Notes under the pieces: generated by a model | The model's database searches: none | Seen by the model: the letters and a program-made list of their open reading frames with translations, nothing else | Told to the model about the DNA's origin: nothing | Program-made: the position numbers and the translations under genes | Source: Phaeodactylum tricornutum CCAP 1055/1 | Lineage: Eukaryota; Bacillariophyta; Bacillariophyceae; Surirellales; Neidiaceae | Assembly: GCF_000150955.2 (NCBI RefSeq) | Contig: NC_011672.1 | Coordinates: 186,001 to 250,000, forward strand | Direction: 5' to 3' | DNA: 64,000 bases | Shown: positions 26,281 to 31,348 of the stretch, in pieces | Layout of the letters: every line of letters begins with the position of its first letter | How positions within the stretch are numbered: the first letter of the stretch is position 1

Positions 26281-27155
26281 TGTACTATCAGTGCTGGCAC
26301 GACTAAGTTTTGGGAGTCAATCGATACCGCAGGACGATAGCTTCTCTACAAGGCGAATCGATCGATTAGTGGATGAAGAACAGAGGACTGTGGTCTACAT
26401 CACAAAACATCCAATCCATTTCACAACTCGCAATCAAAAATCTCTTCCCCTCATGCATCACTTCATATCGCTAGGATCCACTTGGAACCATTCCTGACCC
26501 CCAGACAGACGTCCGGTGGTTTTGATTGCTGTAAATATTGTCGCTTCGACGGATGCCGTCGACGTTGAAAACAGTCTGGCCGCCTGCCCAGAAAATTCGC
26601 TTCGATACCCTTTATTTGAGTGTTTGTTATTCCCCGTGCTTCTACCGACCCAGCCCCGCGCGATCCATTCGTTATCGAATTTGTACTAGGGAGGCTGTAG
26701 CTTTCTTAGTAGAACGTCAGCCACGCCTCATTTTTCGGACGCCCCCGACACAAAAATTCGGCGATGGTTGCTAACCGAAGATGGGCATATTCTTTTTATA
26801 TCACTTCGACACTATGCCCCCATGGTCCGGGTACCAAAATCATATCTCTTCGAATACCGGTGTGAGTCAAGCCCCGCACTCGATCGACTATGAGTTTGGC
26901 ACCAACTGACAGTCAACAACAACCACGGACAAAAGCGTACAAGCAAACCTCTCGACATGTGGACCCGATTGTCTGTTGCTCGTTCGCAAGGTTCGCAAGG
27001 CAGAACTCATTCATCTTGACTTGCTTTCGAAAGAAAAAAGAACAAGGTGGTTTTCGAATCTTGTCAGCAGAAGTGGTGGATACCTCCATATAGTCATTAC
27101 CAATCTCTACTCCTTTAGAGTCTCTGTTGACACCCACAATCCCGCAGTCGGGATC

Positions 27156-29051
27156 ATGAGACACATCTTGACCGACCTTCGCGGCAATCCCATTTATTCC
27201 TTCGCCCATCGCCGGCTCCGTCGTATGAGGCATTCCCACGCCTCAACGCTTTTGTTGCTCGTCCAGAATCGCTCGTGGGAATCCGTCCTCCACCGGGCAG
27301 CTCAGCACCCCCAAGAAGTTTGGATCGTCGACGACGGTGGGAATACGCCCTTGCACGTAGCTGCTCGGCTCGATCCTCCGCCTGCCGTCGTGAAGGCGCT
27401 GCAGGTGACGTCAAGGGTTGCAAATTTGGAAGGGATCACACCGTTGCACATAGCGGCATCGCATCGGTGTTCTGCCGCCGCTTTGCGGGCACTCATTGCC
27501 TGTGCTGGTTCTGCGACAACAATCACTACAGATGGAACTGTTGCTGGATGCCTCGTAGATACTCCTTCCTTGAAGGAAAGCGATGCTTCGTCTGTAGGCG
27601 AAAAAGAAAAAGTAGGGCTTTCTCCTACCGCTGACTTGTCTCGTATGGGCCGAGCCCCAATTCACTATGCTTGTTTGTCTTTTCGGGGACACAACATTGA
27701 GGCCTTTTCGGTCCTTCTTGATGCAACGCTAAAAAGCGGTTTTGTCACCTTGCACGATTTTGTGGTTGATGAAGCTCTACCGGACTTTGAAGAGTTCGAC
27801 GAAGAGTTCACTGACGACTTTTGCGACACCAAAAACCTTAAGTCTCAGCATTTTGAAGCGAAGCAACGAGTGAAGAAGGTCATTAACGTGATGAACATGA
27901 AGGACGCAACGGGACAAACCCCACTGGGACTTTTATTTCGCCGGTACCGGGAACGTGTCCGTTGCGTAATATCCACCGTGGATCGACTACGTCGCGAACA
28001 TCCGAATCGGGAACAAGCGGCAGTAGGAGCAGCGTTGGCTGTCCACGCCGATTTGGGAGAACTTTGGGAAAAGGCGCGCTTGATTGTTATTAAACTTACA
28101 GAGGAGCGATTGCAACGTGAAGATTCCGAAAAAGCGGCATCCAACAGGTCCATAATTATATCTAGCAACGCTACTGAAATGAGTCCTCCGTCTCCCGGAG
28201 AGGAGGCTGTCGCTCAAGAAGCAGCTCAGTATGCGATGGAGCGTCATCAAAGAGTTGACAACACGAGCATAGAAGACGAGGACTTCCTCACTTTGCCAGG
28301 AGACGAACTTGTTAACGACCGAGACACACGACGCCTTAAGTTCCGAATTGTCCATGCTTCGGTGGGTTTGACGGGGTACGGCTGTCCACCAGAAATGATA
28401 CGTTTGGCTCTTTCCATCTATCCCAACCAAGTCCACGAAATGGACGAAGACGGCAATTTACCACTGCACATTGCTGTAGCAGAGGCGAACTATGTAGCCA
28501 CGACACCGAATGGGGGTCTTCCAGAATTTCATAATCAACTCGGTATTGGAGAGATTTCCGACGATCACAGTGTTGTGTCTGCTATGAGTTTCTTTTCCTC
28601 GGCAACTATATCCCAGACCGTCAACCCATTCGACAAGGTCATCAAGATGCTCTTGCAGCAGTATCCGGAAGCTGCCAAGATCCCTCAAGGTCGGACTGGT
28701 CGGCTGCCGTTGGTAATGGCCTTGGAATCGGGTCTGCGGACTTGGGAAGACGGAATTCGGACCTTGTTGAACGCCTACCCGCCAGCGCTGCACGACAAGA
28801 AGCTAATTGAGCCTGCTTTGTATCCGAACGTGTTGGGTTTGGTCACGAACGCCTCTAACCTTCTCTTTCCCTTGTCACGTATTGGTGGAAGCTCTACTGG
28901 GCTGGACGATTTGCTGCCTAGAGGAAGCCAGCATCTTCGCTCGCGCAGAGCTCGCAGCAACACGCAAGCAAAACGTCGGGAAGAGTGCGCCCGAACGACA
29001 CTGTTTGAGCTGCTTCGCACTAAGCCTGAGTGGTTGGTGTCGGAAGCATAG
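27156..29051 (+). CDS. Ankyrin-repeat protein
   Basis: A frame of 631 residues from the first in-frame ATG at 27156; the open frame continues upstream to 26976 but only from a TTG, so a 5' exon (for example from the ATG at 26890) cannot be excluded. Ankyrin repeats show as GNTPLHVAARLDPPPAVVKA, GITPLHIAASHRCSAAALRA, GRAPIHYACLSFRGHNIEAF, GQTPLGLLFRRYRERV, GNLPLHIAVAE and GRLPLVMALESG. An acidic insert lies around residues 205-230, and a charged helix with PPSPGEE precedes the later repeats. There is no membrane segment, kinase or other domain, so it is a protein-interaction scaffold without a definable partner. Confidence 0.87.
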   Translation: MRHILTDLRGNPIYSFAHRRLRRMRHSHASTLLLLVQNRSWESVLHRAAQHPQEVWIVDDGGNTPLHVAARLDPPPAVVKALQVTSRVANLEGITPLHIAASHRCSAAALRALIACAGSATTITTDGTVAGCLVDTPSLKESDASSVGEKEKVGLSPTADLSRMGRAPIHYACLSFRGHNIEAFSVLLDATLKSGFVTLHDFVVDEALPDFEEFDEEFTDDFCDTKNLKSQHFEAKQRVKKVINVMNMKDATGQTPLGLLFRRYRERVRCVISTVDRLRREHPNREQAAVGAALAVHADLGELWEKARLIVIKLTEERLQREDSEKAASNRSIIISSNATEMSPPSPGEEAVAQEAAQYAMERHQRVDNTSIEDEDFLTLPGDELVNDRDTRRLKFRIVHASVGLTGYGCPPEMIRLALSIYPNQVHEMDEDGNLPLHIAVAEANYVATTPNGGLPEFHNQLGIGEISDDHSVVSAMSFFSSATISQTVNPFDKVIKMLLQQYPEAAKIPQGRTGRLPLVMALESGLRTWEDGIRTLLNAYPPALHDKKLIEPALYPNVLGLVTNASNLLFPLSRIGGSSTGLDDLLPRGSQHLRSRRARSNTQAKRREECARTTLFELLRTKPEWLVSEA

Positions 29052-29393
29052 GAGCACTTGTGATTTCAGCCTTGAAACTGTAATAACGGAAACCCTTCAA
29101 CGATCAAAAAGGAAGCTCCAAGATGAGGTAAAGATTGCCTGATTACTGTCATTAGTGTAAAAACTAAGAAGATAGCATTATAATTTATGTAAATATTGCA
29201 TTTTATTTTTTTGTCAGGTTTTCCTCTCTCCTCGGCAGGCAAAATCGTTTCCCGAAACCATGAATGAAAGCACCGAAACCTCAGTATTAAAAAGAAAAGT
29301 CGAATGGCCACTTCCGAAGATAAAAATATATGTCGAGTTGATTTACAAAGGGCGGGCAGAGCTGCAAGCAAAGTCGTGTGCTTTCAAACTCAA

Positions 29394-29815
29394 CTACCAT
29401 CCAGTCACTGAGGAATCGTCAAACGATGCCATGAACCAGCCAGCTGGCAGTTGGTCTCGTAAAAGTTGGGAAGCTATAATCCAGCCAATCCAAAGACTGG
29501 CGGCAGCTGGCGCGGAATATTGGCAGCGTTGTACCCACTTTTCAGCCTCTTGTTGGATTTCTTCTGGCGTCGCTTCCGGCGCTCCTTCCGCTTCAGGAAA
29601 ATCTGTGAAAAGTGTAGAGCGTTTGCTGTCAGTTTTATTTTCTACCAAGCCCATCGCCTGTCCTACAACAAATACTCACGATCGTCGGGATTTAAAATGG
29701 CTTCGGTTGACTCCTGGCGACTTCCTCTCCAATATAACACATGCACGATCCATAGCCACGGAAGTCCAAAGCATCCTGCTTGAAAAAGTCGTTTCGAAAG
29801 GATATCTGTTCTCAT
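29394..29815 (-). CDS. PEN2: PEN-2, gamma-secretase subunit
   Basis: Exons 29815-29680 and 29602-29394, with a GTGAGT...TCACAG intron, phase kept, give 114 residues; human PEN-2 has 101. An in-frame stop lies just upstream of the ATG. Helix one carries GLPWLWIVHVLYWR, matching the LPFLWLVNIFWFFR signature of PEN-2. After an acidic loop come EKWVQRCQYSAPAAASLW and IGWIIASQLLRDQLPAGWF, matching helix two and the RPRWGALGD region. PEN-2 binds presenilin and is needed for maturation of the intramembrane protease. Here the acidic loop between the helices (EAEGAPEATPEE) is longer than in animals. A 185-residue plus-strand frame overlaps the gene completely and easily hides it. Presenilin, nicastrin and APH-1 are not in this window. 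Confidence 0.82.
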
Positions 29816-30338
29816 GATGTGCTATATTCAGGAATATGATGGAGCAATATTCTATGAAGGATACCGCGTTCCCTTTGTCCCGCAATTTCGAGGCAATCGA
29901 TAGCAATCAAGGCTACTAATTGACTGTAAGTGTTATGGATAAAGGGAGTCGTGGCATCCTGTGCCTTGCCGTCGCTGCTTCCTTCACGCTGTCCCCCTAT
30001 GGGACCGTTCTGTCATTGTGAACGCTTTTCGGCGAGCGGGCCTCCGAGTTTCAACGAATGTCCGGGTTCAGAATGTTTTGTACAGTTCAATCCACAGTCC
30101 GTCCTGATTTTCTGACAATATATAAACAAATCGTTTCTACGACGTGATTTTTGAAGTTTTGAACCAATCAAAAGTGTGTCCTCCGCGCCAGTTGGTGCTC
30201 CGGTTGGACAACAGGAGAGTAAATGTCGTGGTGTAGAACTTGTACCAAATGCTACATGAGTCGGCACCGACAAAAAACTTGCTCGAACGAGACTTTCTCT
30301 CGAACGCATCAAAAAATCACTTTTGAGAGAAAACGAAC
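29816..30338. other. Divergent promoter region, PEN-2 / histone H1
   Basis: About 520 bp separates the two divergent starts. No coding frame of note was seen; it presumably holds both promoters. No TATA-type element could be assigned with confidence. Confidence 0.5.
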
Positions 30339-31348
30339 ATGACGACGATTGTATTGATTAAAGAGGCTATTGCCACGCTTAAGGACCGCACCGGATCTTC
30401 GGTAGTCGCCATCAACAAGTGGATTGAATCTGAGAAGAAGGTAAGCCAAATCGATCTGTGCGAAAAGTTATCGCCGACCAGAGACAGCTGGGTTCGGTCG
30501 AAACCGACGTTTTTTTGGTTCTTCGGGACATCCTCTTTTTTAAGAGTTACTGTTGAAACCAAAAGTTGCCCTACATCCGTATTCCCTACACCGATCGACA
30601 CAGTGTATCCAAGGGGACGGTATACGTGTGATTTGTTTCTCCATTTGTTCCCGCGGTTGCGATACGGATCTGTTTAGTTTGTACATGGATTCTACGATGT
30701 TTTTGTAGGAGGAAGTTGTGACCTCAGATTTCTTGGGATCTAGGTTCCGCAAGAGTACAAAAGATGTACAGATCTCTCTGAAATCCTATATTGAATAAGC
30801 TCACCAAGTTTCGTCCGAATTCATTGCGCAGGAGCCCGTCAAAAAGCACATTTTGAAAGCAGCATTGAAGCGGGGCGTAGAAACTGGTACCCTCGTGCAG
30901 GTAAAGAACTCCTACAAGGTTAGTCCGCAGGAAAAGGCGAAAAAGAAGCCGGCAGTCAAAAAGGCAGCCCCCGCAAAGAAAACAGCGGTCACGAGTAAGG
31001 TAAGTTGGAAGGAAGCGCTGTTGTGGGATCACTTCGTGGCCACTTTAACTCACGTCGCTGTTATACGACTGTGGAACTAGACTACCGCACCAAAGGTACG
31101 AATGTTTGGACCTACGCTATTTGTTACTTCCCATTGTTCTATCTAGCAACTCACAATTGACCTTATTTCTTCCTGTGCAGAAAAAGCCCCCTACCAAGAA
31201 GGCGACGACAGCAAAGAAGACAACAACGGTCAAGGCCAAGGCAACTGCATCCAAACCGGCGAAGAAGACATCTTCCAAGAAGGATACCAAGGCGAAAAAA
31301 CCTGCAGCCAAAAAAGTAAGCAAGAAGAAGGAAGTCGAGAAGCAGTAA
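30339..31348 (+). CDS. Linker histone H1
   Basis: Exons 30339-30440, 30832-30999, 31081-31095 and 31181-31348, all in phase 0 and all with GT-AG ends, give 150 residues. The first two exons make the winged-helix domain: VLIKEAIATLKDRTGSSVVA, INKWIESEKK, then EPVKKHILKAALKRGVETG and LVQVKNSYKVS. The rest is the Lys/Ala/Pro-rich DNA-binding tail (KKPPTKKATTAKKT, KKTSSKKDTKAKKPAAKK). Exon three is only 15 nt and encodes TTAPK. The presence of introns means the mRNA is probably polyadenylated and expressed outside S phase as well. It packs linker DNA in the nucleus. Length is at the short end of the family. Confidence 0.9.

Follow-up and report, generated by a model that had tools for sequence, protein, structure and literature searches.

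A probable PEN-2 gene of gamma-secretase beneath a longer antisense open frame in the diatom Phaeodactylum tricornutum

Gamma-secretase in stramenopiles and in the present genome

PEN-2 is the smallest part of gamma-secretase, a membrane-cutting enzyme. In animals it attaches to presenilin, helps that protein to cleave itself into two fragments and lends stability to the active enzyme. In a 2009 study of the Notch pathway, presenilin, nicastrin and APH-1 are recorded from heterokonts, two Phytophthora species having been sampled, and PEN-2 is recorded from unikonts and plants only (PMC2770060). A 2011 paper states that Phytophthora possesses homologues of all four gamma-secretase subunits, the data being given as 'not shown', and some Phytophthora gene models are said there to need substantial correction (PMC3116508). 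A brown-alga paper mentions presenilin together with nicastrin in gametes of Ectocarpus; for the diatom Seminavis robusta it mentions nicastrin (PMC3879662). Among the matches listed for open-licence PMC titles and abstracts, no description of a diatom PEN-2 was found; one could exist in print elsewhere.

The locus considered here lies in a window of 64,000 nucleotides, the whole stretch of DNA analysed (C4:186001-250000), and the genome searched comprised 27,450,724 bases in 88 contigs. Judged from its sequence, the locus is very probably a diatom PEN-2 gene with a single intron, read from the minus strand. Compared with the 2009 survey, presenilin, nicastrin and APH-1 are shared with the heterokonts, whereas PEN-2 is here encountered in a diatom (PMC2770060). 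Phytophthora offers a parallel, in that a stramenopile PEN-2 likewise accompanies presenilin, nicastrin and APH-1, the likeness being one by that paper's statement and not by sequence (PMC3116508). Given this literature on stramenopile gamma-secretase, the present gene is therefore understood as a divergent representative of an established family.

A diatom PEN-2 had been taken in the preliminary description to imply an intramembrane protease complex in this lineage, and the search of the genome for the partner subunits agrees with that expectation. Presenilin (twice), APH-1 and nicastrin were all found, each with matches far over the cut-off. The two presenilins stand in tandem on contig C1 (1766938-1768389, 346.3 bits; 1768994-1770553, 341.1 bits); they agree at 238 of the 551 columns of their alignment (43% identity), and YD, GLGD and PAL motifs, and with them the catalytic aspartate motifs, are present in both. 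One further presenilin match, on C31, remained under the cut-off with 11.8 bits, and 3 of the 14 controls gave a signal, none of it over the cut-off. APH-1 is located on C10 (602987-603853, minus strand, 87.7 bits) and nicastrin on C2 (732019-732741, 81.1 bits), the latter with Pfam matches to both the large and the small lobe. Because the genome search scores best candidates only, these copy numbers are lower bounds. The genomic presence of the partners constitutes the strongest support for the PEN-2 gene. It is because the same genome encodes the other three parts of gamma-secretase that we regard the finding as sound, but as one within a known family. The side-by-side arrangement of two presenilins suggests that the diatom may have two alternative gamma-secretases.

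As a separate observation, the nicastrin on C2 reads GETYGFMGS, with the glutamate kept and the DYIGS motif changed relative to the human protein, which reads GETFDYIGS at the corresponding place.

Gene structure and relationship to PEN-2

The gene had been described as consisting of two exons on the minus strand, joined at 29680/29602, and this structure is borne out by an intact frame, running cleanly from ATG to TAG and yielding a spliced product of 114 amino acids. Its parts are as follows.

29815-29680, minus strand: PEN-2 exon 1, 136 nt, starting with the ATG at 29815; 45 whole codons plus one base of codon 46
29679-29603, minus strand: inferred intron, 77 nt, GTGAGT...TTTTCACAG; splice signals canonical
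29602-29394, minus strand: PEN-2 exon 2, 209 nt; acidic loop, second hydrophobic segment, C-terminal tail, TAG stop

Read without splicing, the frame of exon 1 hits a stop within the 77-nt intron. A scan of possible junctions (donor 60-259 nt downstream of the ATG, acceptor upstream of nt 360, introns from 30 nt upwards) gave 58 GT/GC...AG combinations that keep the frame open to the same stop, and 29680/29602 appears, by eye, the best-looking among them. Exon 1 carries the first hydrophobic segment, including LPWLW. Among 15-residue windows, hydropathy is highest in those beginning near residue 13 (1.6) and residue 79 (1.5), and it is negative in between, so that two hydrophobic segments are separated by a polar loop. 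This loop, to which an acidic character had been ascribed, contains 11 D/E against 2 K/R in residues 32-69 and is acidic indeed.

Two neighbours on the plus strand of the window were noted. A 713-residue frame with ankyrin repeats (26910-29051; Ank_2, E 8.3e-12) is placed tail to tail with PEN-2, and a candidate gene for linker histone H1, seemingly interrupted by an intron (30339-31080), is placed head to head with it; the downstream part of the putative H1 gene (30799-31080) barely passes the Pfam Linker_histone cut-off, with 22.5 as compared to 22.4 bits.

PEN-2 (PF10251) was the sole Pfam family found for the spliced protein at E <= 10, with a score of 27.3 bits against the curated cut-off of 25 (E 4.8e-6; residues 6-34). 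The margin is about 2 bits, the aligned part is a single hydrophobic segment belonging to exon 1 only, and the match stops at profile position 36 of 93. Exon 1 alone scored 27.5 bits, and the open frame containing exon 2 matched no Pfam family. The profile check suggested at the outset was thus passed narrowly, via exon 1 alone. The PEN-2 signatures claimed for the gene can be upheld, to a modest degree, through exon 1, which lies over the Pfam cut-off; exon 2 is without a profile match. Searching the genome with the PEN-2 profile returned this locus as the single reported place (25.8 bits), and none of the 14 control genomes gave a signal. No PEN-2 chain occurs among the 60 of 62 PDB matches listed for the spliced protein at E <= 10, all of which have E of 0.37 and up. 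With human PEN-2 as query no match was obtained in this genome, in a search lacking a positive control, whose empty result shows nothing. Pattern matches in viral contigs (1) and in prokaryote genome contigs (34) included no confirmed relative that might have served a conservation test; neither of these two collections contains eukaryotes, and the outcome is expected because the PEN-2 family is eukaryotic.

Human PEN-2 (PDB 5a63 chain D, among others) is of the same size class, with 101 residues compared to 114 here. Both proteins have a first hydrophobic segment with LPxLW (GLPWLW in the diatom, FLPFLW in human), and in both a second hydrophobic segment is found beyond a polar loop. The diatom protein differs by having, in the alignment, 8 residues fewer ahead of the first segment, by a loop that in this one comparison is longer and acidic, and by a divergent tail. 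The C-terminal DYLSF motif is important in human PEN-2; FMASF of the diatom protein aligns with it, retaining S and F but not D, Y and L. The alignment score against human PEN-2 was reached in 5 of 2000 shuffles when global and in 11 of 2000 when local. For the exon-2 half, the gapped score was not significant (241/2000 shuffles, global; 1254/2000, local). An ungapped register of 27 residues in exon 2, picked after the sequences had been seen, shows W-V-x-R...W-I...Q..R with 6 identities, and its score was reached by 12 of 5000 shuffles with the register fixed and by 32 of 5000 once it was allowed to shift by 5. Ungapped and gapped tests disagree, and the shuffle-based support for exon 2 is accordingly mixed.

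The narrow profile score, confined to a single segment, and the weakness of exon 2 are what one would see if a hydrophobic protein had passed the PEN-2 cut-off by chance, or if the locus were a PEN-2 pseudogene. We consider either improbable, given that frame and splice signals are intact and that the genome, which also encodes the partners, gave no other reported PEN-2 match. A PEN-2 gene on the minus strand is the reading retained in what follows.

The antisense frame and the choice of strand

The gene is overlapped on the opposite strand by a long open frame.

29260-29817, plus strand: antisense open frame, probably not a gene; 185 amino acids from the ATG at 29260

From stop to stop, this frame extends over 29176-29817 (213 amino acids). 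It had been pointed out that its 185 codons exceed either exon in length; this is correct, and the frame is also longer than the whole PEN-2 gene. Neither Pfam nor the PDB (E <= 10) gave a match for it, and the genome gave no second one. Long shadow frames are common in this genome: in 200 kb of it, 97 frames reach 185 amino acids or more, and 9 of these run largely antisense to a longer frame, itself of 300 amino acids or more. The openness of the frame was evaluated in tests run after the frame had been noticed. Of 1000 dinucleotide shuffles of 29052-30341 (1290 nt), 1 contained, on either strand, a frame of 185 amino acids or more counted from an ATG. When codons were redrawn for the unchanged PEN-2 protein, plus frames this long persisted in 84 of 2000 cases, and in 4 of 2000 when the flanks and the intron were shuffled as well; the plus phase stayed open over exon 2 in 121 of 2000 and over exon 1 in 566 of 2000.

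Codon usage was scored after training on 25,597 codons from 52 long frames. The minus-strand coding sequence obtained 0.058 per codon (exon 1, -0.087; exon 2, 0.162) and the plus frame -0.003, compared to a mean of 0.099 (s.d. 0.075; 5th percentile -0.010) for 200 training chunks. The three antisense frames of these chunks gave means of -0.025, -0.023 and -0.088, with 95th percentiles of 0.096, 0.095 and 0.029. The value of 0.058 is thus within the training range, yet it is exceeded by the 95th percentile in two of the three antisense frames, and the scores of both strands therefore fall within the spread of real genes as well as of their shadows. Synonymous usage alone hardly separates the two (0.000 for the minus-strand coding sequence, -0.031 for the plus frame; training 0.044, s.d. 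0.049). Codon usage was discarded as a means to settle the strand, the bias being weak; the mean scores lean to the minus strand without deciding.

If the plus-strand frame of 185 amino acids were the gene and the frames on the minus strand were its shadow, the length of the plus frame relative to either exon and its rarity in the shuffling and redrawing tests would be accounted for. The PEN-2 match would then be left unexplained, however, and the frame would be a gene lacking a Pfam, PDB (E <= 10) or second genomic match, scoring well under the training mean in codon usage, in a genome where antisense frames of such length recur. We regard this as highly improbable. The plus frame is more open than expected; a shadow frame is nonetheless the likelier interpretation.

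A further scenario, which overlaps the PEN-2 assignment and is compatible with it, involves use of both strands, with PEN-2 on the minus strand and a noncoding antisense transcript or small protein on the plus strand. Natural antisense transcripts are reported to cover 21.5% of annotated P. tricornutum loci (PMC7445176); they are thus widespread in the organism, and a noncoding antisense RNA is therefore plausible here. The unusual openness of the plus frame is in line with such use and its near-zero codon score is not, and we view the scenario as unlikely on balance, if worth keeping in mind. Its strictest version, a true antisense coding pair in which PEN-2 on the minus strand is matched by a translated plus-strand protein of 185 amino acids, with a gamma-secretase able to use either tandem presenilin, would have that protein overlap all of the PEN-2 coding region except the last base or so, and seems to us a poor prospect.

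Proposed role and significance

With the minus-strand PEN-2 gene as the preferred explanation, its product would most likely join presenilin, APH-1 and nicastrin in gamma-secretase. By analogy with animals, it may bind presenilin and promote autocleavage into two fragments, and it could stabilise the active enzyme, which would cut the membrane stubs of other proteins. The exons, the profile match and the partner genes, with catalytic motifs in presenilin, are observed in the sequence, whereas splicing, expression, complex assembly, activity and substrates are what we infer for this PEN-2.

Lastly, the gene is of a small, spliced and diverged type that automatic annotation may lose. A diatom PEN-2 is ordinary in kind; its use lies in annotation and in tracing how gamma-secretase evolved. 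The four-subunit set in the diatom, together with that stated for Phytophthora in the 2011 paper (PMC3116508), fits a complete gamma-secretase in early stramenopiles and weakens the 2009 result of PEN-2 only in unikonts and plants (PMC2770060); the complex is likely ancestral. Since the diatom is without a nervous system, the substrates of its enzyme would bear on the ancestral job of gamma-secretase.
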